From Micromonospora siamensis (GTDB lineage Bacteria > Actinomycetota > Actinomycetes > Mycobacteriales > Micromonosporaceae): 64,000 bases of DNA. Each line of letters starts with the position of its first letter. The first letter of the stretch is position 1. The translations under genes were made by a program, and so were the position numbers. The notes below the pieces were generated by a model. The model made no database searches. It was given only the letters and a program-made list of their open reading frames with translations, and was not told the DNA's origin. The stretch covers positions 2,356,001 to 2,420,000 of the forward strand of contig NZ_LT607751.1 in the NCBI RefSeq assembly GCF_900090305.1, in the 5' to 3' direction. Positions 24,874 to 39,256 of the stretch are shown here, in pieces.

Positions 24874-25752
24874 TCAGTAGCGGTTGACGGCCGGCGGGCT
24901 GCCCAGCTCGGCGCCGAACTTGCCGGCGGTGTCGTCCCACGCCTTCTTCCAGCTGCCGTCTGAGTACGCCTTCTCCAGCGTGTCGTTGATGAAGTTACGG
25001 AACGCGGTGTCCTCCTTCTTCACCCCGATGCCGTACGGCTCCTTGGTGAAGTTCTCGCCGGCCAGCTTGAAGGACGACTCGTCCTTGGCGATGTAGCCGA
25101 GCAGGATCACGTTGTCCGTGGTGACGGCGTCCACCTGGCCGCCCTTGAGGGCGTCGCGGCACTTGTCGTACGTGTCGAAGAGCACCAGCTGGGTGGCGAC
25201 GTCCTTGACGTACTTCTTGATCTCCTCGGCCGGCGTGGAGCCGGTCACCGAGCAGACCTTCTTGGTGCCGTCCTTGAACGAGTCCGGACCGGTGATCGTG
25301 GAGTCGTCCTTCTTCACCATGATGTTCTGGCCGGCCTCGTAGTACGGCCCGGCGAAGGAGACCCGCTCCTTGCGCTCGTCCTTGATCGTGTAGGTCGCGG
25401 CGACCAGGTCGACCGTTCCGTTCGCGATCACGTCCTCGCGCACCTTCGACGGCGTCTCGACGTACTCGATCTTGTCCTCGGGGATGCCGAGCTCCTTGAC
25501 GATGAGCTTGGCGATCTCGACGTCGAAGCCCTCCGGCTTGCCCGACAGGCCCTTCTGGCCGAAGCCGGGCTGGTCGAACTTGGTGCCGACCTTGATCTTC
25601 TGGGCCTTGTGCAGCCGCTCCATGGTGCTGCCGGCGGGGAAGGACTTGCTGCCGGCACCGGTGCCCTCGTCGGCGTCATCGCCGCCACAGGCGGCCATGC
25701 CGAGCGCCAGGGTGGCGGCCGCGGCGAGCGCGGCCACGCGCTTCAAACGCAT
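24874..25752 (-). CDS. gluB: glutamate-binding lipoprotein GluB
   Basis: A 292-aa extracytoplasmic solute-binding lipoprotein. The signal peptide is MRLKRVAALAAAATLALGMA, with lipobox cysteine in LGMAACGGD, then a disordered linker. The SBP_bac_3 domain follows, with GFDVEIAKLIVKELGI, VDLVAATYTIKDERKE and VDAVTTDNVILLGY. The ATG at 25752 is preferred to 25758 because AAGGAG ends directly at the upstream ATG, giving proper spacing only to the second. It delivers glutamate or a related acidic amino acid to GluCD. Confidence 0.92.
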   Translation of the reverse strand: MRLKRVAALAAAATLALGMAACGGDDADEGTGAGSKSFPAGSTMERLHKAQKIKVGTKFDQPGFGQKGLSGKPEGFDVEIAKLIVKELGIPEDKIEYVETPSKVREDVIANGTVDLVAATYTIKDERKERVSFAGPYYEAGQNIMVKKDDSTITGPDSFKDGTKKVCSVTGSTPAEEIKKYVKDVATQLVLFDTYDKCRDALKGGQVDAVTTDNVILLGYIAKDESSFKLAGENFTKEPYGIGVKKEDTAFRNFINDTLEKAYSDGSWKKAWDDTAGKFGAELGSPPAVNRY

Positions 25753-25810
25753 ACTCATCTCCTTCTTCGACGGAACCCACCGGGGGACGGCGTGCTCCAA
25801 CTACGGATGC

Positions 25811-26566
25811 TCAGTGCGTGAGGATCTTGGAGAGGAAGTCCCGGGCCCGCTCGCTGCGCGGGTTGGCGAAGAACTCGGTCGGGGGAGCGTCCTCGACGAG
25901 CTGCCCGTCGGCCATGAAGATGACCCGGTTGGCGGCGTGCCGGGCGAAGCCCATCTCGTGGGTGACCACGACCATGGTCATCCCCTCGCTGGCCAGCGAC
26001 GTCATCACGTCCAGCACCTCGCCGACCATCTCCGGGTCCAGCGCGCTGGTCGGCTCGTCGAAGAGCATCGCCTTGGGCTGCATGGCCAGCGCGCGGGCGA
26101 TGGCCGCCCGCTGCTGCTGGCCGCCGGAGAGCTGCGCGGGGAACTTGTCGGCCTGGTTGGCGATGCCGACCCGGTCGAGCAGGGCCAGGCCGCGCTCGCG
26201 GGCGGCGGCCGGCTTCTCCTTGCGGACCTTCACCGGGCCGAGGGTGACGTTCTCCAGGATCGTCTTGTGGGCGAAGAGGTTGAACGACTGGAACACCATG
26301 CCGACCTCGCTGCGCAGCTTCGCCAGCTCCCGCCCCTCGGCGGGCAGCGGCCGCCCGTCGAAGGTGATGGTGCCCGAGTTGATCGGCTCCAGCCGGTTGA
26401 TCGTCCGGCACAGCGTCGACTTGCCCGAGCCGGAGGGGCCGATCACGACCACGACCTCACCCTTGCCGACGGAGAGGGACACGTCGTCGAGCACGTGCAG
26501 CGGGCCGAACCACTTGTTGACCCCGTCCAGCACGATGAGCGGTTCGCCCGTCGTCACGTCGTCCAC
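25811..26566 (-). CDS. gluA: glutamate-type ABC transporter ATP-binding protein GluA
   Basis: A 251-aa polar-amino-acid ABC ATPase and first gene of the gluABCD operon. Walker [10 protein letters not shown] at 43-51, Q-loop [14 protein letters not shown], signature LSGGQQQR, Walker [14 protein letters not shown], and the H-switch [13 protein letters not shown] are all intact. A minus-strand -10-like TACAGT lies at 26619-26624, about 55 bp upstream. It is divergent from selD. Confidence 0.94.
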
Positions 26567-26764
26567 CGTCCTGTCGTTCGGCTGAGTCCGGCCGGCCGTC
26601 CGGCCACCGGTTCCGGCAACTGTAGGCGGGGTGACGTGGCGGAACGCAACTCAGTTGGTCACGGAGCGGTAACACCGGTTCCGATCCGCACCGGGAGTCC
26701 GAATTCCGCGGCGATCCGGTCCCCTGCGGTGGCGCCCGCGACACCTTGCCGAGATCATGAGGGG

Positions 26765-27754
26765 ATGACCTCACCGGTACGGCTGACCGATTACGCCCGC
26801 GGCGGTGGGTGTGCGTGCAAGATCCCGCCCGGCGAGCTGGAGACCATGGTGGCGGGTCTCGGCCCGGCCAGCGGCACTGCCGAGCTGCTGGTCGGCCTGG
26901 AGAACGGCGACGACGCCGCGGTGGTCCGGCTGGACGAGCGGACCGGGCTGGTCAGCACCGCCGACTTCTTCACCCCGGTGGTCGACGACGCGTACGACTG
27001 GGGGCGGATCGCGGCGGCCAACGCCCTGTCCGACGTGTACGCGATGGGCGGCACCCCACTGGTGGCGCTCAACCTGCTCTGCTGGCCGCGCGGCGTGCTG
27101 CCGCTGGAGTTGGCCCGGGAGGTGCTGCGCGGCGGTCAGGACGTGGCCCGGGGGGCGGGCTGTCACCTGGCCGGCGGGCACAGCGTCGACGACGAGGGCC
27201 CGAAGTACGGCCTGGCCGTCACCGGGGTGGTCCGCCCCGAGGAGTTGATCACCCTGGACGCCGGCCGGGCCGGCCTGCCGCTGTCGCTGACCAAGCCGCT
27301 CGGGGTGGGCGTGCTGAACACCCGGCACAAGGCCACCGGGGAGGTCTTCGACGAGGCGGTCGCGTCGATGAGCGCGCTGAACCGGGACGCCGCCCGCGCG
27401 GCCGTCGCGGCGGGGGTGCGGTGCGGCACCGACGTGACCGGGTTCGGGCTGCTCGGGCACGCCTCGAAGCTGGGCCGGGCCAGCGGCCTCACCGTCGCCC
27501 TGGACACCGCCCGGGTGCCGTACCTGGCCGGTGCGCGGGAGGCGCTGCGCGACGGGTACGTCAGCGGCGGCAGCCGGCGCAACCTGGAGTGGGTCACCCC
27601 GTGGACGGACTTCGGCGCGGCCGGCGAGGACGAGCGGCTGCTGCTGGCCGACGCCCAGACCTCCGGTGGGCTGCTGGTCGCCGGGGAGGTGCCCGGGGCG
27701 CCGGTGATCGGCGAGCTGCTGCCCCGGGGGGAGCACCTGGTGGTGCTCCGCTGA
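26765..27754 (+). CDS. selD: selenide, water dikinase (selenophosphate synthase)
   Basis: A 329-aa SelD making selenophosphate from selenide and ATP. The catalytic loop reads GGGCACKIPP: C16 and K19 correspond to the essential Cys17 and Lys20 of E. coli SelD, so this is a Cys (not Sec) form. The ATP/Mg motifs GDDAAVVRLDE, TADFFTPVVDDAYDWGRIAA and AGGHSVDDEGPKYGLAVTG are conserved, as is TDVTGFGLLGHA. No selA, selB or tRNA-Sec gene is adjacent, so its use (selenocysteine, tRNA selenouridine or a selenium cofactor) cannot be told from this window. ATG at 26765. Confidence 0.93.
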   Translation: MTSPVRLTDYARGGGCACKIPPGELETMVAGLGPASGTAELLVGLENGDDAAVVRLDERTGLVSTADFFTPVVDDAYDWGRIAAANALSDVYAMGGTPLVALNLLCWPRGVLPLELAREVLRGGQDVARGAGCHLAGGHSVDDEGPKYGLAVTGVVRPEELITLDAGRAGLPLSLTKPLGVGVLNTRHKATGEVFDEAVASMSALNRDAARAAVAAGVRCGTDVTGFGLLGHASKLGRASGLTVALDTARVPYLAGAREALRDGYVSGGSRRNLEWVTPWTDFGAAGEDERLLLADAQTSGGLLVAGEVPGAPVIGELLPRGEHLVVLR

Positions 27755-27980
27755 CCCGTCGCCACCCCCGGCGCGACACGGTCGTCAGGCATGCCCGGGA
27801 GCGGCACCGTACCCGATAAACTGTCATCTTTCCGCTACTCGGAGCAACGTCGCCCGAGGAAATTTTGCCCGGAATGGTCACAGACCGGTAACTTGCCCCC
27901 GGCTGAGGTCATATGCCCCCCACCATCGAGATGACGGCCCGATCCGGAGGCCGGTGGGACGAGCACAGCGAGGAGGCGGC

Positions 27981-28454
27981 ATGACCGAGCTGTGGAACTG
28001 GAGAATCGACGGGTCACGCCCGGAGGTGGTGTACCCGGCGCTGGCCGAGGCGCTCGGCCGGGTGGTGATGCCCCTCGCGGTGGCCGACCCGCTGCGCCTG
28101 CCCGCGTACGCGGTGGTCTGCGACGTATGGGAGGCGCCGGGCGAGTTCGGCACGGTGGTGGACTGCTACGGGGTGCCCGAGCGCCTCTCCGAGCAGGCCT
28201 GCGTCGCGGCGCTCGCCCGGCTGCTGGGGCGCGACTGCCTGCTCGCCGACGACACGCTGGACGCCGGCCGGCACCTGCTGGTGGCGCCGGACGGCACCGT
28301 TCGCCCGGTCCACTTCGATGTGACGGAGACCGACGACGGTGAGGAGCTGAGCAACCGGCGGCCCTGCACCACGGCCGACCCCCGCTGCCGGGGGTGGTGC
28401 CAGCGGTCCCGCTGGGCGCCGGACTCGGTCGCCCCGGTGCTCGCCGCGGCCTGA
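27981..28454 (+). CDS. hypothetical protein
   Basis: A 157-aa soluble protein with no recognised family. It begins MTELWNWRIDGSRPEVVYP and is rich in acidic residues, with a cysteine-bearing tail (RPCTTADPRCRGWCQRSRW). ATG at 27981 follows a strong GAGGAGG ribosome site. It sits 226 bp after selD and converges with the DUF2277 gene 15 bp further on. Confidence 0.65.
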   Translation: MTELWNWRIDGSRPEVVYPALAEALGRVVMPLAVADPLRLPAYAVVCDVWEAPGEFGTVVDCYGVPERLSEQACVAALARLLGRDCLLADDTLDAGRHLLVAPDGTVRPVHFDVTETDDGEELSNRRPCTTADPRCRGWCQRSRWAPDSVAPVLAAA

Positions 28455-28469
28455 CCGCGGCCGGGGTGG

Positions 28470-28703
28470 TCAGGAGCCGGCGCCGGCCGTCCGGCCACCC
28501 CCGCGGACCACGAGCTGGTCGAGCAGGGTGGCGGTGGCGGCGGCGACGGCCGCCACCGCGGCGTCGAAGGCGGCCGCGTTGTGCGGGGCGGGCGCCCGGA
28601 ACCCGGAGATCTTCCGGACGTACTGCAACGCGGCCGCGTCGATGTCCGCGGGGGTGACCTCCGGGGCGTACGGCTCCCGCAGCGTCTTGATGCTCCGACA
28701 CAT
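28470..28703 (-). CDS. DUF2277 family protein
   Basis: A 77-aa protein clearly matching DUF2277: MCRSIKTLREPYAPEVTPAD, followed by DIDAAALQYVRKISGFRAP and AAFDAAVAAVAAATATLLDQL. The family is widespread and uncharacterised. The ATG at 28703 is preceded by GAGGAGGAG. It is divergent from the FxSxx precursor gene, with about 150 bp between them. Confidence 0.85.
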   Translation of the reverse strand: MCRSIKTLREPYAPEVTPADIDAAALQYVRKISGFRAPAPHNAAAFDAAVAAVAAATATLLDQLVVRGGGRTAGAGS

Positions 28704-28755
28704 GGTGCGCTCCTCCTCGTGACACCCACGGCGGGTGCCTGCTGCCGTACCGACG

Positions 28756-28784
28756 GTGACAACGGGTCGAGTCTTGTCTATTCT
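28756..28784 (+). promoter_or_regulatory. candidate promoter of the Fxs operon
   Basis: GTGACA at 28756-28761 and TATTCT at 28779-28784, with a 17-bp spacer, lie about 70 bp upstream of the precursor GTG. This is the only good promoter-like pair before the tightly packed fxs genes, so it probably drives the whole operon. Confidence 0.45.
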
Positions 28785-28857
28785 GGCAACGGATCAGAGC
28801 CCTTCGAGCCACGCTGCCGCTCGCGCTTCCCGCGCCCGGGCCCCCCGGAGACTCATT

Positions 28858-29046
28858 GTGGACCAGACGCCCTCCCGTCACCTTCCGCCGTCCCTCGACG
28901 TTCTGACGCGCAGCCTGCACACCCCGCTCGGCCGGGTCGCCACCGAGCACCCCGACACGGTCGCGCTGGTCCGGCGGCGGGTCCTGCCCCACGACGCCAC
29001 CCCGCCGGTCGCCGTGCCGGTCGCCGGCTTCAACTCCGCCATCTGA
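28858..29046 (+). CDS. fxsA: FxSxx-COOH cyclophane peptide precursor FxsA
   Basis: A 62-aa peptide ending in F58-N59-S60-A61-I62, exactly the FxSxx-COOH signature of Fxs precursors. The leader contains SLDVLTRSL and HPDTVALVRRR; a Pro/Ala/Val-rich stretch precedes the core. In characterised three-residue cyclophane (triceptide) systems the radical SAM partner links the aromatic ring of the first residue to the beta-carbon of the third, here Phe58 to Ser60. GTG at 28858 has GGAG 7 bp upstream; a longer in-frame start at 28735 would overlap the promoter. Only one core is present. The maturase gene starts 3 bp downstream. Confidence 0.88.
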   Translation: MDQTPSRHLPPSLDVLTRSLHTPLGRVATEHPDTVALVRRRVLPHDATPPVAVPVAGFNSAI

Positions 29047-29049
29047 GGG

Positions 29050-31512
29050 ATGGCCGGCCGGCACGGCGCCACCGACCCGGGCGTCTCCGGCCGGCCGATC
29101 AGCCAGTACGTCCTCAAGGTGCACAGTCGCTGTGACCTGAGCTGCGACCACTGCTACGTCTACCAGGAGGCCGACCAGACCTGGCGGACCCGACCGGTCC
29201 GGATGGCGCCGGAGACCGTCCGGGCCGCCGCCCTGCGGATCGTCGAGCACGCCCGGGCGCACCGACTGCCCGTGGTGCACGTCGTGCTGCACGGCGGTGA
29301 GCCGCTGCTGCTCGGCGCCGACGGCCTGCGGCAGGTGCTGGCCGAGCTGCGGGCGACGATCACCCCGTGGACGGGTCTCGACCTGCGCATGCAGACCAAC
29401 GGCGTGCTGCTCGACGAGGAGCTCTGCCGGCTGCTCGCGGCGTACGACGTCAGGGTGGGGGTGTCCCTCGACGGTCACCGGGCGGCGAACGACCGGCACC
29501 GGCGCTTCGCCCACGGCGGCACCAGCCATCCCCAGGCCCGCCGGGCGTTGGCCCTGCTCCGCCGGCCCGAGTTCCGCGGCAGCTACGCCGGCATCCTCTG
29601 CACCGTCGACGTGCGCAACGACCCCGACCGGGTCTACGCGGCGCTGCTCGCCGAGGAGCCGCCCCGGATCGACCTGCTGCTGCCGCACGCCACCTGGGAC
29701 CGGCCGCCCTGGCGACCTCCCGGCACCCCCACGCCGTACGCCGACTGGCTGGGCCGGATCCACCGGCGCTGGGTGGCCGACGGCCGTCCGGTGCCGATCC
29801 GGCTCTTCGACGCCCTGGCCCCCGGCGCGACCGGCGGCGGCACCGAGGCGGTCGGCCTCGCCCCGGCCGACCTGCTCGTGGTGGAGACCGACGGCAGCTG
29901 GGAGCAGGTCGACTCGCTCAAGGTGGCGTTCCACGGCGCCGCCGGCACCGACCTGGACGTCTTCGGCCACCCCGTCGACGAGGCGGCCCGGCATCCCGGC
30001 GTCGCGGTCCGGCAGGAGGGGCTGGCCGGGCTCTGCGCCACCTGCCGGGCCTGCCCGGTGGTGGCCCGCTGCGGCGGCGGCCTGTATCCGCACCGCTGGC
30101 GCTCCGGCAGCGGGTTCGACAACCCGTCGGTCTACTGTTCCGACCTGCGGGCGCTGATCGCCACGATCGACGCCACCCCGCCCGGCGCCGCCGCCCGGCC
30201 ACCGCAGCGGGCGGGCGCCCCCGCGAAGCCACCGGCCGTGCCCCGCCAACGAGAGCCCGCCTCCCACCGGCCCGAGGCGGCCCCCCGCCGGCAGTCAGCC
30301 GCGACGCCGCCGGTGGGGGAGCCGATGGGCACGGACGCCCTGGCCGACGAGCTCGCCACCGGCCACGGCGGACCGGAGGCCCTCGACCTGCTCGCCCGCA
30401 CCCAGCTCGCCATCACCCGGGCGTTGCTGGCCAGCTGGCGCGACGTCGCGGGGGACAGCGCCGCCTGGCGACTCCTCACCGACCTCGACGCCACCGCCCC
30501 CGAGGCGGTCGCCACGGTGCTGGCGCACCCGTTCGTCCGTCCCGCGCTGGTACGCCGGCTCGACCGCCCCGCCCCGACCGGCGGCCCCGACGCCGACCCG
30601 CTGCCCGCCCTGGCCGCCGCGGCGGCCGTCCACGCGGGTGTCGAGGCGGCGGTGGCGGTCCCGGTACGCGCCGGGGCGGTCCTGCTCCCCACCCTCGGCC
30701 GGCTGAGCGTCCCCGGAACGAAAGACGCGCTGCTGACGGTCGCGGCGGGCGGCTTCCGGATCCGGGCCGGCGGGCAGGAGTGGCGGGTGTCGCCGGGCGT
30801 CGCGCCACCGCCCGGCTGGCAACCCACCCGCCGGGCACCGGTCACCGGCACGACCGTCGACATCGAGGACACCGACCCGGAGCGGGACTGCTACGGCGAG
30901 CCGGTGGCCTCCCAACTGGACGGCGCGGCGGCTGGGGCGCTGGCGCGTACCCTCGCTGCGGCCTGGCGGGTCGCGCACCGCGACGTGCCCGCGCACGGCC
31001 GGACGCTCGACGCCGGGCTGCGGGCCGTGGTGCCGCTCGCCCCCGACCCCACGGCGCCGCTGCGCAGCGCCACCGCCCGGCAGGCGTTCGGCGCGGTCGC
31101 CGTGGCCCCCGTCACCGACCCGGAGACCCTGGCCGTGCTCCTGGTCCACGAGTGGCAGCACGCCAAGCTCGGCGCCCTGCTCGACCTGGTCGACCTCGTC
31201 GACTCCGCCTCGCCGGTGCTGACCCGGGTCGCCTGGCGCACCGACCCCAGGCCCGCCGAGGGGGTGCTCCAGGGGGCGTACGCGCATCTGGCGGTGACCG
31301 AGGTGTGGCGGGCCCGGGCCCGCAGGCCCGACGCGGACGTCGCCCGGCGGCACGCCGCCCGCTACCGGGACTGGACCCGTGACGCCCTGGACGCTCTGCT
31401 GGCCGGCGGGGCGCTCACCGGGACCGGCGAGCGGTTCGTCCGGCGGATGCGGGACACCCTGGAGGACCGGATGCGGGACACCGTGGAGGAGTCGCGTGCT
31501 GGCGGCGACTGA
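29050..31512 (+). CDS. fxsB: FxsB radical SAM/SPASM maturase fused to an HExxH domain
   Basis: An 820-aa two-part enzyme. Residues ~15-385 are a radical SAM/SPASM domain: the 4Fe-4S motif CDLSCDHC (C28, C32, C35), HGGEPLLL, MQTNGVLLDEE, VSLDGHRAANDRHRR, and SPASM cysteines C329, C332, C335 and C341 (CATCRACPVVARC). A Pro/Ala-rich linker (~385-430) leads to a C-terminal domain (~440-820) with an intact metal-type motif HEWQH at 700-704. That domain resembles the HExxH peptide beta-hydroxylase-like extension found in Fxs and related loci. Predicted roles are cyclophane formation on FxsA and a second modification. ATG at 29050; its end overlaps the next gene by 17 bp. Confidence 0.92.
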   Translation: MAGRHGATDPGVSGRPISQYVLKVHSRCDLSCDHCYVYQEADQTWRTRPVRMAPETVRAAALRIVEHARAHRLPVVHVVLHGGEPLLLGADGLRQVLAELRATITPWTGLDLRMQTNGVLLDEELCRLLAAYDVRVGVSLDGHRAANDRHRRFAHGGTSHPQARRALALLRRPEFRGSYAGILCTVDVRNDPDRVYAALLAEEPPRIDLLLPHATWDRPPWRPPGTPTPYADWLGRIHRRWVADGRPVPIRLFDALAPGATGGGTEAVGLAPADLLVVETDGSWEQVDSLKVAFHGAAGTDLDVFGHPVDEAARHPGVAVRQEGLAGLCATCRACPVVARCGGGLYPHRWRSGSGFDNPSVYCSDLRALIATIDATPPGAAARPPQRAGAPAKPPAVPRQREPASHRPEAAPRRQSAATPPVGEPMGTDALADELATGHGGPEALDLLARTQLAITRALLASWRDVAGDSAAWRLLTDLDATAPEAVATVLAHPFVRPALVRRLDRPAPTGGPDADPLPALAAAAAVHAGVEAAVAVPVRAGAVLLPTLGRLSVPGTKDALLTVAAGGFRIRAGGQEWRVSPGVAPPPGWQPTRRAPVTGTTVDIEDTDPERDCYGEPVASQLDGAAAGALARTLAAAWRVAHRDVPAHGRTLDAGLRAVVPLAPDPTAPLRSATARQAFGAVAVAPVTDPETLAVLLVHEWQHAKLGALLDLVDLVDSASPVLTRVAWRTDPRPAEGVLQGAYAHLAVTEVWRARARRPDADVARRHAARYRDWTRDALDALLAGGALTGTGERFVRRMRDTLEDRMRDTVEESRAGGD

Positions 31513-32320
31513 CCCGTCGACGGTCGCGGCGCACCGGGCCCGGCTCGCCGCCGGCCTGCGGGCGCTCGGCCTGCGGCCCGGCCAGGACGTGCTGGTGCAC
31601 TGCTCCCTGCGCCGGCTGGGCCGGCCGCCGGGCGGGCCGGCCACCCTGGCCGCGGCGCTGCGGGACGTCCTCGGGCCGGACGGCACGCTGCTCGTGCCCA
31701 CCGAGAACGCCGGCAACTCGACCACCTCGCGCGCCTACCGGGCCGCCGTGGCCGGCCTGACCGCCGACGAGCTGGCCGCCTACCACGCGGCGATGCCGGG
31801 CTGGGACCGGGCGACCACGCCGTCGGAGGGCACCGGGGCGTTCGCCGAGCACGTCCGGCTCACCCCCGGCGCGGTCCGCAGCGACCACCCGCAGACCTCG
31901 TTCACCGCCCTCGGGCCGCGCGCCCACCGGTTCACCGACGGGCACGAGCTGGAGTGTCACCTGGGGGAGCGGTCCCCGCTGGCCCGGCTGTACGACGCCG
32001 ACGGCCGGGTGCTGCTGCTCGGTGTGGGCTGGGCGGCCTGCACCGCGCTGCACCTGGCCGAGTACCGGCTGCCGGTGCCGCCGCCGACGCGCCGCTACCA
32101 CTGCTACCGCCGGGTCGACGGGGAGCGGGTGCCGCTGGAGTTCACCGGGCTGGACCTGGACGACACCGACTTCCCGGCGGTGGGCGCGGCCCTGGACGCC
32201 ACCGGGGTGGTCCGCCACGGTCGGGTCGGCGACACCACGGCCCGACTGCTGCCGGTACGCGCCACAGTGGACCTCGCCGTCGCGTGGTTCACCGCCAACC
32301 GGCCGGGCACACGGCGTTGA
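31496..32320 (+). CDS. AAC(3)-family N-acetyltransferase in the Fxs operon
   Basis: A 274-aa protein of the aminoglycoside 3-N-acetyltransferase fold family. It shows QDVLVHCSLRRLGRPPGG, GTLLVPTENAG, the conserved HPQTSFTALGPRAHRFTDGH, LLLGVGWAACTALHLAE and RRVDGERVPLEF. GTG at 31496 lies inside the end of fxsB, after GGAGGAG. AAC(3)-like genes recur next to FxSxx systems. In this context acetylation of the modified peptide or of another operon product is as likely as antibiotic resistance; the substrate is unknown. Confidence 0.85.
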   Translation: MLAATDPSTVAAHRARLAAGLRALGLRPGQDVLVHCSLRRLGRPPGGPATLAAALRDVLGPDGTLLVPTENAGNSTTSRAYRAAVAGLTADELAAYHAAMPGWDRATTPSEGTGAFAEHVRLTPGAVRSDHPQTSFTALGPRAHRFTDGHELECHLGERSPLARLYDADGRVLLLGVGWAACTALHLAEYRLPVPPPTRRYHCYRRVDGERVPLEFTGLDLDDTDFPAVGAALDATGVVRHGRVGDTTARLLPVRATVDLAVAWFTANRPGTRR

Positions 32321-32372
32321 CGTGGGGACTACGCTGATGGTCCGGCCGCGTGGGGAGGGCGGAGGCGCATCG

Positions 32373-33032
32373 GTGAGCACAGTGGACGCACCCGCCGCGA
32401 CGCGGGCCCCGCTGTTCTTCCTCAGCTACTCCCGCCCGCCGTTCCGCCGCTCCACCCCCGGCGCCACCGATCCCGTCCTGCGCTTCTTCGAGGACCTGTC
32501 GGTCCACGTCAGCGAGCTGGTCGGGCCGGAGACCGGGGTCGACGCCGGTTTCATGGACAGCGCCATGACCGGCGGGGAGCGGTGGACCCCGGAGCTGCTG
32601 CGCGCCGCCGGGACCTGCCAGGTCTTCGTCCCCCTGCTCTCCAGCGCGCTGATCGGCAGCGCCTGGTGCGGGATGGAGTGGGACGCCTTCTCCCGCCGCC
32701 GACTGGTGCCGCAGGGCGGCGGCGGGCCCGGCCACGCCACCGCGATCGTGCCGGTCACCTGGTCGCCCACGGACGACGCCCGGCTGCCCCGGGTGGTCCG
32801 CGACATCCAACGGTTCTCGCCCACCCCGATGCCGGATCCCGACATCGTGCGGCAGTACGAGCGGGAAGGGGTCTACGGCTTGCTCACCATGCGGATGGAG
32901 AACGCGTACCAGGCGGTCGCCTGGCGGCTCGCCCAGCGCATCGTCGAGATCCACCGGTCGTTCCGGGTGGAGCCCCGGGTGCCCGCGGGCTTCGGTGAGC
33001 TGCGGAACCTCTTCGCCGGGGAGGAACGGTGA
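32373..33032 (+). CDS. TIR-like protein of the Fxs system
   Basis: A 219-aa TIR-like protein. It opens with PLFFLSYSRPP, continues AGTCQVFVPLLSSALIGS, and carries WCGME with E102 at the position of the catalytic Glu of TIR NADases (WCxxE). The C-terminal half has RFSPTPMPDPDIVRQYEREG and a helical end. GTG at 32373 follows GGGCGGAGG; an in-frame ATG at 32337 is possible. The stop overlaps the start of the second TIR-like gene. Whether it hydrolyses NAD is unknown. Confidence 0.82.
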   Translation: MSTVDAPAATRAPLFFLSYSRPPFRRSTPGATDPVLRFFEDLSVHVSELVGPETGVDAGFMDSAMTGGERWTPELLRAAGTCQVFVPLLSSALIGSAWCGMEWDAFSRRRLVPQGGGGPGHATAIVPVTWSPTDDARLPRVVRDIQRFSPTPMPDPDIVRQYEREGVYGLLTMRMENAYQAVAWRLAQRIVEIHRSFRVEPRVPAGFGELRNLFAGEER

Positions 33033-34288
33033 GCCCCTACGGCGCGGCGCCCGGCACGTACTTCTTCCTCAGCTACGCCCACTCCGCGCCGCCGCAGGGC
33101 GCGCGGACCGACACCGACGTCTGGGTACGCCGGTTCTTCACCGACCTGTCGGCCGCCGTGGCTGAGCGGGCCCGACCGACGCCCGGGATGCGGATCGGCT
33201 TCTTCGACCAGCACATCCCGGTCGGGGCGGACTGGAAGGCCGCGCTGGCCGAGGCGATCAGCGGCGCGCAGGTCTTCGTCCCGCTCTACTCACCCGGCTA
33301 CTTCCGGCGCCCGTGGGCCCTCGGCGAGCAGGAGTCGTTCCGGGCCCGGCTCGCCGCGGCCGGGGCGACCGGCGACCGGGACGGGCACGTCGCCCCGGTG
33401 CTGTGGATCCCGTTCCCGTACGGCGAGACCGGTCCCGAGCTGGCGGCGGCGCTGGAGCGGGGCCGGGAGATCCCCGGGTACGCCGAGAACGGTGTCCGGG
33501 CGCTCTGCATGCTGTCGGCCTACGCCGACCCGTACCGCGACCTGCTGGCGGGACTGGCCCGGCACATCGTGGACGTCGCCGAGCGGCATCCGCTGGCCCC
33601 CTCCCGCGCCCCCGGCCTGGACGAGGTGGCCCGGCCGGTGCCCGGCGACCCGGACCTGGTGGTGGCCGTCCTGGCCCCCACCCGCGACCGGCTCCCGCCC
33701 GGCCGGGCCGTGCAGCCGTACGCCGGCGCCGGCCGGTCCTGGCGCCCCTTCGGTGGGCAGCAGGAGCTGCCGGTCGCCGAGTACGCCGCCAGCACCGCCG
33801 AACGGCTCGGCCTGTCGGCGCGGACGGTCGACTTCGACGGGGCGGGCGAGCTGCTCGACCGCCGCCCGGCGGTGCTGCTGATCGATCCGTGGCTCGCCGC
33901 GGCGCCCGGCGCGGTGGGTTCCCTGGTCGGCGCGGTACGCGGGCTGCGGCCCTGGGTGGTGCCCCTGGTGATCACCGACGGCGAAGACCCGCAGGACGCC
34001 ACGCGACTCGCCGAGGACGTCACGGACATGCTGCACAATGCGGGCGTGCCCCAGGTCAAGCAGGCCCGGAGCGTGACGGAGTTCGCCGGCCTCATCCCCG
34101 CGCTGGTGACCGAGGCCCGCCGGCAGTACCTCAAACACGGCCCGGTGACGGAGTTCCCCCCGCCGCCCGAGCCGCCACCCAGCCTGCGGCACGGGCCGGA
34201 GCCGCGTCCCCGGCCCGGCACCCGCCTCGACCCGCCGCCCGCCCACGACGATCCGGCGTCGCCGCGTACCCACGGAGAGAACCGATGA
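33029..34288 (+). CDS. fxsC: TIR-like protein FxsC
   Basis: A 419-aa protein. Residues ~10-195 are TIR-like (TYFFLSYAHS, GMRIGFFDQHIPVGADWK, AQVFVPLYSPGYFRRPW), with E100 in PWALGEQE at the catalytic-Glu position but Ala replacing the usual Cys. Residues ~205-360 form a second alpha/beta domain (VVAVLAPTRDRLPPGR, PAVLLIDPWLAAAP), typical of FxsC. The last 50 residues are Pro-rich and disordered. GTG at 33029 overlaps the previous stop, and its own stop overlaps fxsT. Confidence 0.85.
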   Translation: MSPYGAAPGTYFFLSYAHSAPPQGARTDTDVWVRRFFTDLSAAVAERARPTPGMRIGFFDQHIPVGADWKAALAEAISGAQVFVPLYSPGYFRRPWALGEQESFRARLAAAGATGDRDGHVAPVLWIPFPYGETGPELAAALERGREIPGYAENGVRALCMLSAYADPYRDLLAGLARHIVDVAERHPLAPSRAPGLDEVARPVPGDPDLVVAVLAPTRDRLPPGRAVQPYAGAGRSWRPFGGQQELPVAEYAASTAERLGLSARTVDFDGAGELLDRRPAVLLIDPWLAAAPGAVGSLVGAVRGLRPWVVPLVITDGEDPQDATRLAEDVTDMLHNAGVPQVKQARSVTEFAGLIPALVTEARRQYLKHGPVTEFPPPPEPPPSLRHGPEPRPRPGTRLDPPPAHDDPASPRTHGENR

Positions 34289-37200
34289 GCAACGATCGCG
34301 AAGGTCAGGTCGTCACGTTCTACTCGTTCAAGGGTGGAACGGGTCGGACCATGGCGCTGGCCAACGTGGCCTGGATCCTGGCCGCCAACGGCCGACGGGT
34401 GCTGGTCGCCGACTGGGACCTCGAATCCCCGGGCCTGCACCGCTTCTTCCACCCGTTCCTCGACGCCGAGGCGATCCAGAACACCAGCGGCGTCATCGAC
34501 ATGATCCGCGACTACGAGTGGGAGACCACCCGCACCGTGGACCGGCCGGACCGCTGGGTCGAGCAGTTCGCCCGGGTCGGCCGGCACGCGTTCTCCCTGC
34601 GCTGGGACTTCCCCGACGGCGGCAGCCTGGACTTCCTCTCCGCCGGCCGGCAGAACAGCGACTACGCCGTCTCGGTCAGCGGCCTGGACTGGGACAACTT
34701 CTACAACCGGCTGGGCGGCGCGCAGTTCTTCGAGGCGCTGCGCGCCGACATGAAGCGCGAGTACGACTACACCCTGATCGACAGCCGCACCGGCCTGAGC
34801 GACGTCGCCGACATCTGCACCCTGCACCTGCCGGACACCCTGGTCGACTGCTTCACCCTCAGCGACCAGGGGATCGAGGGCGCGGCCGGGGTGGCCCGCT
34901 CGGTCCGGGACCGGTTCCGCCGCCGGCCGATCCGGATCCTGCCGGTGCCGATGCGGGTCGACCAGGCCGAGAAGGAGAAGGCGGAGGCCGGCCGGTCGCT
35001 GGCCATGCGCCGGTTCCTCGGGCTGCCGTCCGGGATGACCGAGCCGGAACGCCGGCGCTACTGGGCGGCGGTGGAGGTGCCGTACCGGCCGTTCTACGCG
35101 TACGAGGAGACCCTGGCCACCTTCGGGGACCCTCCCGGCTCGCCGACCTCGCTGCTGGCCGCGTTCGAGACGCTGACCGGGATCCTCACCGACGGCGAGG
35201 TGAGCGCGCTGCCGGTGATGGTGGAGTCCGTCCGCGAGCGGGGCAAGGCCCGGTTCCGCCGCCGCGCCGAGGCCGTCGACGACCAGATCGTGCTCCGGTA
35301 CGCCCCGGAGGACGCGGTCTGGGCGGAGTGGCTGGAACGGGTGCTCAGCTCGGCCGGGATGCGGGTGGTCGACCCCGGCTCGGCGGTCGGCTCGGCGGCC
35401 ACCCCGGCGCCCCGGACGCTGACCGTGGTCTCTCCGGCCTACCTGGCGACCCCACCGGGCGGCCTGCCGCCCCGCGAGCCGAGCACCGGCTCGACCGCCC
35501 TCGCCGTCTACGTGGCCGACCTGCGACCGCTGGCCGAGTTCCCCGCGCAGGCCGCCACCCACCTGGTCAACGTCAGCGCGGAGACGGCGGTGGAGCGGGT
35601 GCTGCGGCTGGTCGGCCGGCCGGTGCCGGCCGCGGCCCAGGGTGCGCCCGCCGGCGGCAGCCGCTACCCGGGCACCGATCCGACCGTCTTCAACGCCCCC
35701 AACCGCAACGCCCGGTTCACCGGCCGCGAGGACGACCTGGCCGAGCTGCGCCGGCAGTTGCAGAGCGGGCGCAGCGCGGTGGTGCTCCCCGTCGCCCTGC
35801 AGGGCATGGGCGGGGTCGGCAAGACCCAGCTCGCCCTGGAGTACGTCTACCGCTACCGCGGCGCGTACGACGTGGTCTGGTGGATCGTGGCGGACCCGCC
35901 GCAGTTCGTCGACACCGCCCTTGCCGACCTGGGCGCCCGCCTCGACGTGCCGGCCGGCCCGACGCTGCCCGACTCGGTGCGCAACACCCTCCAGGCGCTC
36001 GGCCGGGGCCGACCCCACGAGCGGTGGCTGGTCGTCTTCGACAACGCCGAGGAGCTCGAGCACATCGAGCAGTTCCTGCCGCAGGGGCCGACCGGCCACG
36101 TCCTGCTCACCTCCCGCAACCGGGCGTGGGGGGAGCGGGCCAACCCGATCCAGGTGGACGTCTTCGACCGGGCGGAGAGCGTCGCGCACCTCGCCCAGCG
36201 GGTCCCGGCGATCAGCGCCGAGGAGGCCGACCGGGTCGCCGACGCCCTGGGGGACCTGCCGATCGCGGTCGCCGCCGCCGGGGCCTGGTTGGCGGAGACC
36301 GGCACGCCGGTCCCGGACTATCTGCGGCTGATCGAACGGCACGGGCCGAGCGCGCTGTCGGTGGAGGCCACCTGGGACCTGTCGCTCAACCGGCTGCGCG
36401 ACCAGGCGCCGGCCGCGTACCGGCTGTTGCAGCTCTGCTCGGTGCTGGCGCCGGAGATCGCCCTGGAGCTGATCTACAGCGACGAGATGGCCGCGGCCCT
36501 GGTGCCGTACGACCCGGCAGTCTCCGAACGGCTGGTCCGGGGCGCCCTGGTCCAGCAGATCAACCGCCTCGCCCTGCTCAAGTTGGACGTGCAGGGCGGC
36601 CGGATCCAGGTGCACCGGCTGTTGCAGGCGGTGGTCCGGGACCGGATGACCGCCGAGGAGGTCACCGAGGCCCGGCACCAGGTCCACCTGGTGCTGGCCG
36701 CGTCCCGCCCGCGCGGCGACGTCGACGACCCCGGCACCTGGCCTCGGCTGCGGATGCTCTGGCCGCACCTGGAGGTGTCGGAGGCGCTGACCTGCGCGGA
36801 GGAGACGGTCCGTCAGCTGCTGATCGACCGGGTGCGCTACCTGTGGCAGCGCGGCGGCCTAGACCAGGCCGACGAGTTCAGCCGGCGGGTCGACGAGATC
36901 TGGTCGGCGCAGGCCGCCGGCCCGGACGGCGGTGGGGCGCTGCCCCGGCAGCTGCTGCACCTGCGGTTCAACCGGGCGAACATCCTGCGCAGCCTCGGCC
37001 GGTTCGCCGAGGCGCGGGACCTCGACGAGGCGGTCCTGGCCGAGCAGCGCCAACTCCTCGGCGAGCTGCACCCGCACTCGCTGATGACCGCCGGCAGCCT
37101 CGCCGGTGATCTGCGGGCCCTCGGCCGGTACGCCGAGGCGCTGGAACGCGACCGCTCCACCTACGCCTCCTGGGTGCAGGTGCTCGGCGAGGACGACCGG

Positions 37201-38148
37201 CGGACGTTGAGCGCCGCCAACAACCTCGCCGCCTCCTACCGGCTGGTCGGGGACTACCGGTCGGCGCGGCGCTGGGACGACGAGGTGCACCAGCGGCGCC
37301 GGCTGGTGCTCGGCCCGACCAACCCGTACACGTTGCTCTCCGCGGTCCGGCTCGGCGGCGACCTGCGGGAGGCCGGCGAGTACGAGAAGTCGGTGCTGCT
37401 GCTCCGCGAGGTGTACGACCGCTACGTCGAGGTGCTGGGCGGCGAGGACCAGCTCACCCTCACCGCCCAGGTCAACCTGGCGGTCTCGCTGCGCAGCGTG
37501 GGCCGGCCCGCCGACGCCGCGCCGATGTTCGAGGCCGCGTACCGGACGCTGGCCGACCGGTTCGGGCCGAACAACCCGGACACGGTGGCCTGCCGGTCGA
37601 GCCGGGCGGCGAACCTGCTCGCGGTCAACGACGAGGCCCGGGCGCTGAGCGAGATGGCCGCAGTGGCCCGCGCGTACGAGGAGGAGCTGCGCCTCGGCCC
37701 GACGCACCCGCACACGCTGGCCACCTTGAGCAACCGGTCCGCCGCCGAACGCGCCCTCGGCCGCCGGTCCGAGGCCCGCGCCACCGCCGGGCGGGCGGTG
37801 GACGAGTTGCGCAAGGTGCTCGGCCTCGACCATCCGCACACCCTCGCCGCGGAGGTCAACCACGCGGTCTGCCTCGCCGAGGAGGGGGAGTGGGCGCCGG
37901 CCCTGGACCGGTTGCGGGACACCGCCCGGCGGCATGGCCACGCCATCGGCGCGACCCACCCGGACACCCTGCGCTGCCTGGGTGACCTCGCCCTGGTCGC
38001 GGGGCGGGCGGGTGCCGGTGCGGCCGAGGCCGACGCCGAGGCCGCCGCCGACCGGCTGGCCGAGGTGATCGGGCAGGAGCATCCGAGCGTGCAGACGCTG
38101 CGGGAGCGCCGGCTGGTGGTCCGGGTGATCGACCCCAACCCGTTCTGA
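34285..38148 (+). CDS. fxsT: FxSxx-COOH system TPR protein FxsT (P-loop, TIR-like, NB-ARC, TPR)
   Basis: A 1287-aa multidomain protein. Residues ~1-300 are a MinD/ParA-like NTPase with deviant Walker A FKGGTGRTMALAN (16-22) and YTLIDSRTGLSD. Residues ~330-445 are a degenerate TIR-like module (QIVLRYAPEDAVWAEWLERV). Residues ~470-760 are an NB-ARC/STAND NTPase: ARFTGREDDLAELRRQL, Walker A GMGGVGKT at 507-514, WLVVFDNAEELEHIEQFLP, and HVLLTSRNR. From ~870 to the end are tetratricopeptide repeats with HPHSLMTAGSLAGDLRALGR-type units and acidic Asp/Glu spacing. ATG at 34285 overlaps fxsC by 4 bp. Last gene of the operon. Confidence 0.9.
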   Translation: MSNDREGQVVTFYSFKGGTGRTMALANVAWILAANGRRVLVADWDLESPGLHRFFHPFLDAEAIQNTSGVIDMIRDYEWETTRTVDRPDRWVEQFARVGRHAFSLRWDFPDGGSLDFLSAGRQNSDYAVSVSGLDWDNFYNRLGGAQFFEALRADMKREYDYTLIDSRTGLSDVADICTLHLPDTLVDCFTLSDQGIEGAAGVARSVRDRFRRRPIRILPVPMRVDQAEKEKAEAGRSLAMRRFLGLPSGMTEPERRRYWAAVEVPYRPFYAYEETLATFGDPPGSPTSLLAAFETLTGILTDGEVSALPVMVESVRERGKARFRRRAEAVDDQIVLRYAPEDAVWAEWLERVLSSAGMRVVDPGSAVGSAATPAPRTLTVVSPAYLATPPGGLPPREPSTGSTALAVYVADLRPLAEFPAQAATHLVNVSAETAVERVLRLVGRPVPAAAQGAPAGGSRYPGTDPTVFNAPNRNARFTGREDDLAELRRQLQSGRSAVVLPVALQGMGGVGKTQLALEYVYRYRGAYDVVWWIVADPPQFVDTALADLGARLDVPAGPTLPDSVRNTLQALGRGRPHERWLVVFDNAEELEHIEQFLPQGPTGHVLLTSRNRAWGERANPIQVDVFDRAESVAHLAQRVPAISAEEADRVADALGDLPIAVAAAGAWLAETGTPVPDYLRLIERHGPSALSVEATWDLSLNRLRDQAPAAYRLLQLCSVLAPEIALELIYSDEMAAALVPYDPAVSERLVRGALVQQINRLALLKLDVQGGRIQVHRLLQAVVRDRMTAEEVTEARHQVHLVLAASRPRGDVDDPGTWPRLRMLWPHLEVSEALTCAEETVRQLLIDRVRYLWQRGGLDQADEFSRRVDEIWSAQAAGPDGGGALPRQLLHLRFNRANILRSLGRFAEARDLDEAVLAEQRQLLGELHPHSLMTAGSLAGDLRALGRYAEALERDRSTYASWVQVLGEDDRRTLSAANNLAASYRLVGDYRSARRWDDEVHQRRRLVLGPTNPYTLLSAVRLGGDLREAGEYEKSVLLLREVYDRYVEVLGGEDQLTLTAQVNLAVSLRSVGRPADAAPMFEAAYRTLADRFGPNNPDTVACRSSRAANLLAVNDEARALSEMAAVARAYEEELRLGPTHPHTLATLSNRSAAERALGRRSEARATAGRAVDELRKVLGLDHPHTLAAEVNHAVCLAEEGEWAPALDRLRDTARRHGHAIGATHPDTLRCLGDLALVAGRAGAGAAEADAEAAADRLAEVIGQEHPSVQTLRERRLVVRVIDPNPF

Positions 38149-38162
38149 CCGGCACGCCGCGC

Positions 38163-38298
38163 GCCCTGCCGGTCCGCAGGCCCTGCCGGTCCGCACGCCC
38201 TGCCGGTCCGCACGCCCTGCCGGTCCGCGCGCCCTGCTGGGCCGTGCGCCTGGTCGGGCCGCGCGCCTGGTCGGCCCGCGCCCTGGCCGGGCCGATGG
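38163..38298. repeat. 17-bp minisatellite after fxsT, eight units
   Basis: Eight contiguous 17-bp units start at 38163, 38180, 38197, 38214, 38231, 38248, 38265 and 38282. The first four read GCCCTGCCGGTCCGCAS or one-base variants; the last four drift to GCCTGGTCGGSCCGCGC forms. The array starts 15 bp after the fxsT stop and ends 26 bp before the hydrolase stop. No ORF on either strand uses it convincingly. Confidence 0.85.
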
Positions 38299-38323: not shown

Positions 38324-39256
38324 TCAGAGCCGCGGGGCGGTGGCCAGCTCGGGGGTGGTCAGCCAGGCCAGGGTCTGCGGCAGGATCTCCACCGCGCCGA
38401 AGTGCGCGGCGCCCGGCTGCACCTGGACCTCCGCGTTGGCGATCCGGGCGGCCAGCCACCGGGAGTGCGCCACCGGCGAGAAGCGGTCCTGCTCGCCGTG
38501 CCACAACCGGACCGGCGCCCGGATGGCGCCGAGGTCGAAGTCCCAGGCGCGGCGCAGGGCGAGCACGTCGTCGATCCAGCCGTCCGGGCCGTGCCGCAGG
38601 GCCTCGGCGTACATGTCGGTGAGCAGCCGGCGGATCGTCACGTCGTCCACCACCCGGATGTCGGACTCGCTGAGCTGCGGGCGGAGCACCTCGAGCAGGG
38701 TCATCGGGTCCCGCTGGGCGTTGCGCGCCCGCTCGGTCAGCGACAGCTTCAGCTCGGTGGCGTCCTCGTCGGCCAGCCCGTAGTCGTCGACGTTGCCCTC
38801 GGTCATGCCGGAGTACCAGTCCAGGTCCGGGGCGCCGGCCGGGGCCAGCCCCACCAGGACCGCGGCCCGGGTCACCCGCTCGGGCAGCAGCGCCGCGCAG
38901 GCCAGGGCGTGCGGCCCGCCACCGGAGCGCCCCACCACGGCGAACCGGTCGATGCCGAGCGCGTCGGCGATCGCCGCCACGTCGGCCGCCGCGTCGGCCA
39001 CCCGGCGGCCCTCCTGCCGGTCGGAGTCGCCGTAGCCGGGCCGGTCGTAGCAGACCAGGTGCACGCCGAGGCGGTAGAGCACGACCGGCCGGGGGCGGGG
39101 GCCGCTGCGGCTGCCCGGGGTGCCGTGCAGCAGGAACACCACCGGCCCGTCCGGGGCGCCGGAGGTCTCCACCGCGAGTCGCCGCCCGTCGCCGGCGACG
39201 ACGATGCGCTCTGCCGCGTTTTGTAGCGTCACGGTGGCCTCCCGCGGGTTCGTCAT
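38324..39256 (-). CDS. alpha/beta hydrolase
   Basis: A 310-aa alpha/beta-fold hydrolase. Oxyanion region VVFLLHGTPGSRSGPRPR, then VCYDRPGYGDSDRQEGR, nucleophile elbow VVGRSGGGPHALA with the catalytic Ser, an acid in LWHGEQDRFSPVAHSRWL, and the catalytic His in QPGAAHFGAVE. The substrate is unknown; epoxide hydrolase or esterase activity is possible. The ATG at 39256 is chosen because GGGGGAG precedes it; the frame stays open to 39376. Monocistronic and divergent from miaB. Confidence 0.87.
   Translation of the reverse strand: MTNPREATVTLQNAAERIVVAGDGRRLAVETSGAPDGPVVFLLHGTPGSRSGPRPRPVVLYRLGVHLVCYDRPGYGDSDRQEGRRVADAAADVAAIADALGIDRFAVVGRSGGGPHALACAALLPERVTRAAVLVGLAPAGAPDLDWYSGMTEGNVDDYGLADEDATELKLSLTERARNAQRDPMTLLEVLRPQLSESDIRVVDDVTIRRLLTDMYAEALRHGPDGWIDDVLALRRAWDFDLGAIRAPVRLWHGEQDRFSPVAHSRWLAARIANAEVQVQPGAAHFGAVEILPQTLAWLTTPELATAPRL

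Follow-up and report, generated by a model that had tools for sequence, protein, structure and literature searches.

A stand-alone fxs peptide-modification locus of Micromonospora siamensis and the convergent alpha/beta hydrolase gene that accompanies it

A 64,000-nucleotide stretch of Micromonospora siamensis DNA (contig NZ_LT607751.1, positions 2,356,001 to 2,420,000; here called the window) contains a block of genes in which a small peptide precursor and its radical SAM/SPASM maturase stand beside TIR and STAND proteins. Where does this peptide-modification locus end, and what would such a combination of proteins do? Its sequence is that of a typical FxSxx-COOH (fxs) locus of the stand-alone type, a kind already in NCBIfam and in print; our additions are a hydrolase, a reading of FxsC as a tandem TIR protein and a cassette boundary at seven genes. 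The composition of the cassette is well shown and its function is inferred. We regard it as plausible, but short of probable, that the seven-gene stand-alone fxs cassette forms a TIR/STAND module for conflict or signalling that is linked to a peptide and works inside the cell.

The seven-gene cassette

The locus was compared with those of 121 genomes of the genus and 396 drawn across the phylum, using the profile cut-off for FxsB, which was exceeded in 79 and 11 of them, respectively. The 107 loci fetched comprise 94 from the genus and 10 from the wider set over the cut-off and three below it, most genus matches below the cut-off being left out; the window brings them to 108. The maturase is fused to an HExxH domain in 61 loci (type 1, that of the window, present in 57/121 genus genomes) and is not in 47. 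Both FxsC and FxsT are found in 59/61 fused loci. The gene order of the window is the commonest (27/108 loci, window included), and 14 more differ only by a missing short FxsC. A further set of 80 named loci represents the best 80 of 589 relatives, hence close ones, some of them already in the survey; 71 of the 80 have at least 8.5 kb downstream, and in 66 of these FxsT follows FxsB. A preliminary description of the locus implied that this set of genes should recur in other genomes, and these counts bear it out.

That description also regarded the locus as complete at six genes, and here it falls short. A seventh gene, encoding an alpha/beta hydrolase convergent with FxsT, lies just outside the six-gene block and is found in 57/61 fused loci, compared with 0/47 of the other loci (E ≤ 1e-5). 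It recurs in 56/60 other fused loci, the other flank genes tested recurring in 4 to 24. All but one of the 57 copies are convergent, at −22 to +176 bases from the FxsT stop. The hydrolase goes with loci whose maturase is fused and not with the others, and the constant part of the cassette is accordingly set at seven genes. The features of the locus are as follows (window coordinates, strand, identity).

28756–28784, forward: putative operon promoter GTGACA-17-TATTCT, a sigma-70-like match
28858–29046, forward: FxsA precursor, GTG start, 62 amino acids, C-terminus AGFNSAI
29050–31512, forward: FxsB, radical SAM/SPASM maturase fused to an alpha-ketoglutarate (alphaKG)-HExxH domain; 3-bp gap after FxsA
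29098–30168, forward: radical SAM/SPASM part of FxsB, residues 17–373; TIGR04269, 540 bits
30952–31449, forward: HExxH domain of FxsB, residues 635–800, HEWQH intact; TIGR04267, 148.5 bits
31496–32320, forward: AAC(3)/FrbF-like acyltransferase, 274 amino acids; 17-bp overlap with FxsB; PF02522, 255 bits
32373–33032, forward: short FxsC, with one TIR domain carrying a WCxxE motif; 52-bp gap before it; NF040588, 149.7 bits
33029–34288, forward: full FxsC, two TIR-like domains at residues ~6–188 (Glu100) and ~208–371; 4-bp overlap
34285–38148, forward: FxsT, with ParA/MinD-like ATPase, degenerate TIR-like part, NB-ARC and TPR; 4-bp overlap
38156–38294, no strand: array of 8.2 tandem copies of a 17-bp repeat, lying where FxsT and the hydrolase converge
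38324–39256, reverse: fxs-linked alpha/beta hydrolase, the seventh gene, convergent with FxsT and outside the six-gene coordinates

Calls of the open reading frames (ORFs), with a check of the junctions, place six of them in one block at 28756–38148, with all gaps and overlaps as first described. The models for FxsB, FxsC and FxsT all score above the NCBIfam cut-off within this block (cut-offs in bits: TIGR04269, 370; TIGR04267, 40; NF040588, 130; TIGR04276, 55; NF040586, 300; NF047398, 90), which upholds the gene identities and the fxs assignment given earlier for all but FxsA. The latter matches TIGR04268 with 20 bits (cut-off 28; E 0.0006; 42/62 residues aligned) and, as this is below the cut-off, is assigned by position and conservation. 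The locus is nevertheless filed as fxs because the model is short (44 positions) and all the partners pass. In the single-contig, 6.25-Mb genome of the window, one FxsB exceeds the cut-off. Of the named relatives in the fetched set, Micromonospora mirobrigensis (L185) is the closest; the last 20 residues of its FxsA are identical and its hydrolase is 98% identical.

Among the fused loci without the hydrolase, L063 and L065 have tandem FxsT, and ~6.5 and 8.9 kb further downstream were also negative. L165 is without hydrolase, FxsC and FxsT, with a hydrolase on another contig of the same genome. L076 is a contig fragment, and L183, from the same genome, holds the remainder including the hydrolase. 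Two FxsT genes in a row, with the hydrolase missing at that place, were seen in L063, L065 and L188. In 56 of the 121 genus genomes there are altogether 57 hydrolase copies of at least 57% identity, the next copies being at 48% and below; of the 57 genomes with a fused locus, 55 are among the 56, and the remaining one is G023, in which a contig start cuts the fxs locus. The match in G031 has an in-frame TGA. The flanks of 54 loci fall into 10 clusters upstream and, again for 54 loci, 13 downstream, and the hydrolase keeps with fxs in all these settings; short or diverged flanks may inflate the cluster numbers. Among the named loci with FxsT, 58/66 have the convergent hydrolase (48/55 outside Micromonospora, split by hand). 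The distances of FxsB, FxsC, FxsT and hydrolase co-vary (r 0.94–0.97, 57 loci; maximum for any pair in 500 permutations, 0.218), as those of a unit would.

Ser151 and Asp297 are present in 57/57 hydrolases and His325 in 56/57 (numbered on a 350-residue ORF); from the motifs of the fold family we take the three to be the catalytic triad. Among the best 120 of 3,871 relatives, those that are named carry generic names (‘alpha/beta hydrolase’, ‘pimeloyl-ACP methyl ester carboxylesterase’). An FxsT-like NB domain is found in 40/47 non-fused loci, none with the hydrolase, which is also missing from three loci with FxsC and FxsT but no FxsB (L180–L182; one unplaced weak match, 38 bits, in L181). Because of these absences the hydrolase goes with the peptide arm of the cassette and not with the TIR/STAND arm. 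The 17-bp repeat fills the gap between FxsT and the hydrolase, which is 176 bases in the window and 102 in L084; the copy number may vary.

Modification of the precursor peptide

A stand-alone FxSxx peptide-processing system with an AP-ATPase has already been published (Kaur et al., eLife 2020, PMC7159879). It shares with the present locus the FxSxx peptide, radical SAM/SPASM enzyme, zincin-like HExxH and actinobacterial AP-ATPase with MinD/ParA-like domain (PMC7159879); the accessible text of that account has neither an AAC(3)-like enzyme nor an alpha/beta hydrolase. The zincin-like enzyme was there taken as the peptidase that cleaves the precursor (PMC7159879). For the fused enzymes this role is superseded by alphaKG hydroxylation according to the accessible text of PMC12636437, in which a fused HExxH enzyme is related to have been shown to be an alphaKG hydroxylase (Nat. 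Chem. 2024). Because the fused HExxH domains are now known as oxygenases, the hydrolase is the sole hydrolytic enzyme left in the constant set, which thereby has no assigned peptidase. No AAC(3)-like enzyme or hydrolase tied to fxs was found in the literature searched, most subscription journals lying outside it, and no function for FxSxx systems was found there either, though the families are named.

The CxxxCxxC motif is kept in 61/61 fused FxsB. We take IPR026335 to be the same family as TIGR04269, that of FxsB. The claim of the preliminary description that the maturase belongs to a cyclophane-forming family stands, in that IPR026335 is the assignment of MscB, a characterised maturase forming a C4(Phe)–Cβ(Ser) cyclophane (PMC11002830, accessible text). 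FxsB is likened to this Phe–Ser cyclophane enzyme by family. With strong support from the family, the radical SAM part of FxsB would close a three-residue cyclophane at the C-terminus of FxsA by linking Phe58 to Ser60; the residue numbering and the FNSAI ending of the preliminary description were both right.

The fused alphaKG-HExxH part would hydroxylate the peptide, again as the family suggests. The TIGR04267 score (148.5 bits against a cut-off of 40) and the HEWQH motif place it among the alphaKG-HExxH hydroxylases, and HExxH is intact in 56/61 fused loci. The nearest solved relatives of FxsB are the ChlB radical SAM structure 9gm3 (residues 17–371) and 22nu (residues 410–817); the fused ChlB/ChlH pair of radical SAM and alphaKG-HExxH enzymes, related in PMC12636437, aligns to both halves of FxsB. 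ChlH targets His and Asp of another peptide, whereas neither residue is found at a conserved position in the tail of FxsA. HExxH is lost in L125, L126, L127 and L156, where the FxS motif is kept, and in L076, the contig fragment. The x of FxSxx was rejected as a general HExxH target, as it is Gly in 22/56 HExxH-intact loci; the persistence of the FxS motif after HExxH loss in the first four loci also disfavours it.

The promoter match is the sole sigma-70-like one in 28600–29060 (mean 0.0 in 50 shuffles), and the block start given in the preliminary description, 28756, coincides with its first base. Its hexamers and spacing are also readable in L084, L087, L062, L066 and L073, with TATCCT in L066 and L073. 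The 9-mer GACGGTGAC is found upstream of fxsA in 24/61 fused loci. A common operator upstream of fxsA was rejected, the commonest 9-mers occurring in at most 25/61 loci and the inspected loci at other sites being without them. ATTGTGGAC, at the start of fxsA, and CCCCGGAGA, upstream of it, each occur in 23/61 loci, and by their conservation the start at 28858 is favoured over a longer ORF from 28735.

An ORF ending F.S.. lies within 200 nt upstream of the maturase in 61/61 fused loci, the measured fact being that every locus has such an ORF, as the regular expression fixes F and S; the FxSxx tail is found in 74/80 named loci. Of the 61 ORFs in the fused loci, 47 end in Ile, 55 have Ala at position −7 and 53 have Val at position −8. 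A second motif, PLxx(x)[ILV], lies within the last 75 residues of 60/61 precursors, and FxsA is variable outside its motifs. Full-length FxsA, a small protein, could itself be the functional product without removal of a leader, its ringed C-terminus a permanent tail that docks on FxsT, with the hydrolase acting elsewhere, on an acyl or ester group or a NAD-derived product. Exactly two residues after Ser in 61/61 (by the expression) and 74/80 named loci would fit such a tail, as would the PL motif in 60/61 and the esterase that is the best match of the hydrolase. The PL motif equally suits a leader recognition site, however, and the variation of FxsA outside its motifs speaks against the whole protein as product; we consider this alternative doubtful.

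In L128 and L129, two loci of the same gene order, the precursor upstream of FxsB is apparently multi-core, with GNFNSFI or GNFSSFI as the repeating unit. In 15 non-fused loci FxsT is on the other strand (L100–L106, L108–L111, L113, L115, L117, L123), and in most of them no FxSxx ORF was seen upstream on the FxsB strand. A small opposite-strand ORF beside FxsB has C-terminal matches in 13/15; its tails in four loci (WQSAIDGDD, FESALDGED, WESAIDGDD, FQSALDGED) resemble an FxSxx-like core extended by acidic residues.

The AAC(3)-like protein was described earlier by that name, and its PF02522 family, shared with FrbF/AAC(3) acyltransferases, agrees; it scores 166.6 bits with the NF033082 aminoglycoside equivalog, under the NCBI cut-off of 270. 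It differs from AAC(3) also in its genomic partner, a peptide maturase. The nearest solved relative is FrbF (3sma, 150 bits), and another PF02522 gene of ~50% identity lies elsewhere in the window genome and in many genomes of the genus. The gene is found in 54/61 fused loci and in 41/66 named loci with FxsT; in the other 7/61, one of them a contig fragment, it was not found. A resistance enzyme was rejected on the missed NF033082 cut-off and the optional gene. The step is optional, so a side step in the pathway: where present, the enzyme may acylate the peptide on an amine or hydroxyl. A lysine of the core was rejected as the acylated residue, as Lys occurs within the last 15 residues in only 5/61 precursors. 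In G111, G020:C51 and G007 the gene has an in-frame TGA, as if decaying, and the precursors end ARFGSVA or ARFGSAA.

An ordinary antibiotic of the class of ribosomally synthesised and post-translationally modified peptides (RiPPs) would be an exported cyclophane peptide that kills competitors, with the AAC-like enzyme as self-protection. The RiPP-type maturase and the AAC(3)-like gene in 54/61 loci suit it, and so do ABC-type ATPase ORFs up to 6 kb upstream in 34/61. The constant gene set of the fused loci holds no transporter by flank comparison of the 61 loci. The upstream ATPases are of several unrelated kinds, most flank groups differing from one another at 27–41% identity, and the majority lie on the opposite strand; in the window and its site relatives, genes for a permease and a solute-binding protein of the amino-acid type accompany the ATPase on that strand. 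An ORF of L145 with matches in 34/61 loci is of ABC-ATPase kind by its relatives, and its partner ORF, like that of L158, is presumably an ABC ATPase by its motifs. We take the ATPases to be flank genes, although they seem commoner than one would expect. The AAC-like gene not found in 7/61 (one a contig fragment), the missed resistance cut-off and the STAND/TIR proteins, which it leaves unexplained, also tell against an antibiotic, and we judge it quite unlikely.

The TIR/STAND proteins

Full FxsC scores 154.3 bits with NF040588 and 69 bits with TIGR04276. The TIR glutamate is present in 44/44 short and 59/59 full FxsC. The motif of short FxsC aligns weakly with the plant L6 TIR (E 0.0023), and in weak sequence matches (E 0.0023–0.014) the FxsC Glu falls at the plant TIR Glu, which we take to be catalytic. 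FxsC has a TIR fold with Glu at the catalytic position, and modelling makes full FxsC a likely tandem TIR protein with the invariant Glu at the catalytic position of the first domain. Relative to TIR NADases (SPARTA TIR, plant RPP1/RUN1), full FxsC adds a second TIR-like domain. Of the TIGR04276 matches over the cut-off, counted by hand, 42/47 are near FxsB on the same contig, two are on other contigs and three apart; the two on other contigs come from broken-up loci or assemblies.

FxsT scores 952 bits with NF040586 and 140 bits with NF047398, and its ATPase part has a Soj/ParA fold; the MinD/ParA-like domain on an AP-ATPase, which marks the stand-alone type, is present. A second FxsT-like protein of the window genome (TIR-NB-ARC-TPR, 854 amino acids, L176:8279–10843, reverse strand, NF040586 645 bits) is encoded with a TetR-type gene on one side and the gene of a BTAD-domain regulator on the other. 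Tandem doubled FxsC–FxsT, with some doubled FxsB, was seen in L209, L216, L220, L241, L257 and L259 (Kitasatospora, Streptomyces and Streptacidiphilus).

Possible function of the cassette

Put together as an intracellular conflict or signalling module, the convergent serine hydrolase may trim or de-acylate the modified peptide, which would stay in the cell as a ligand or inhibitor of FxsT (ParA-TIRlike-NB-ARC-TPR). FxsT would gate the FxsC TIR proteins, and these might cleave NAD+ or make a nucleotide signal, leading to dormancy, death or a developmental response. The preliminary description preferred signalling or defence to an antibiotic. The invariant TIR Glu and the absence of a constant transporter favour this; the ABC-type ATPases in 34/61 loci do not. 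No PADLOC defence model fits, only partial viperin and PDC-M28B matches being obtained at E ≤ 0.01.

Several results weigh against an intracellular conflict module. Foldseek of FxsC gave three PDB matches at E ≤ 0.001, all RPP1 chains, with TM ~0.2. The FxsT TPR has a mean identity of 0.54 (FxsB 0.585, FxsT TIR-like part 0.458) and is not hypervariable, so it gives no arms-race sign of direct phage sensing. FxsC–FxsT pairs without FxsB occur in the fetched 12–20 kb of L180, L181 and L182. FxsT is present with the hydrolase missing in 2/59 survey loci (L063, L065) and 8/66 named loci, one of which (L188, Micromonospora noduli) is probably the genome of L063. The nearest solved relative of the hydrolase is named esterase, not peptidase. 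Plain vertical descent could explain the co-variation of distances in part. Finally, 34/61 fused loci, the window included, have ORFs for ABC-type ATPases at ~3 to 6 kb on the upstream side, which weakens the ‘no transporter’ reading and makes export possible. One genome of the L180–L182 group, G102, was seen to have no FxsB over the cut-off.

The same proteins could serve developmental or housekeeping signalling, the peptide being an internal or short-range signal by which filamentous actinomycetes differentiate; the TIR/STAND proteins would then switch a response and not kill. Among the genera of the named loci are Micromonospora, Actinoplanes, Kitasatospora, Streptomyces and Streptosporangium, with their kin. 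An upstream flank cluster is common to 21/54 loci, and a selD-like gene occurs in 23/60 other loci, a sign that the cassette has long been retained at one site. The ParA part of FxsT is highly conserved (mean identity 0.757). No plasmid record has 80% of FxsB at E ≤ 1e-40 (14 match the radical SAM part only, at <50% identity), and no phage match was found at E ≤ 1e-20. The distribution is patchy, on the other hand (fused locus in 57/121 genus genomes, any FxsB over cut-off in 11/396 phylum genomes), the loci occupy many chromosomal sites and the TIR Glu is kept; developmental or housekeeping signalling seems to us somewhat unlikely. The selD-like ORF, so named from its sequence features, and a DUF2277 gene flank the operon at window positions 25472–28703; of the 60 other fused loci, 23 have the former and 24 the latter, which marks a chromosomal site that these loci share.

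A further form of the intracellular reading makes the hydrolase the missing FxSxx maturation or release enzyme and the ringed peptide an intracellular ligand that restrains or fires a tandem-TIR, NAD-consuming response via the ParA-STAND sensor. We put it forward as an unlikely proposal. If true, it would mean that a RiPP switches an immune-like system within the very cell that makes it.

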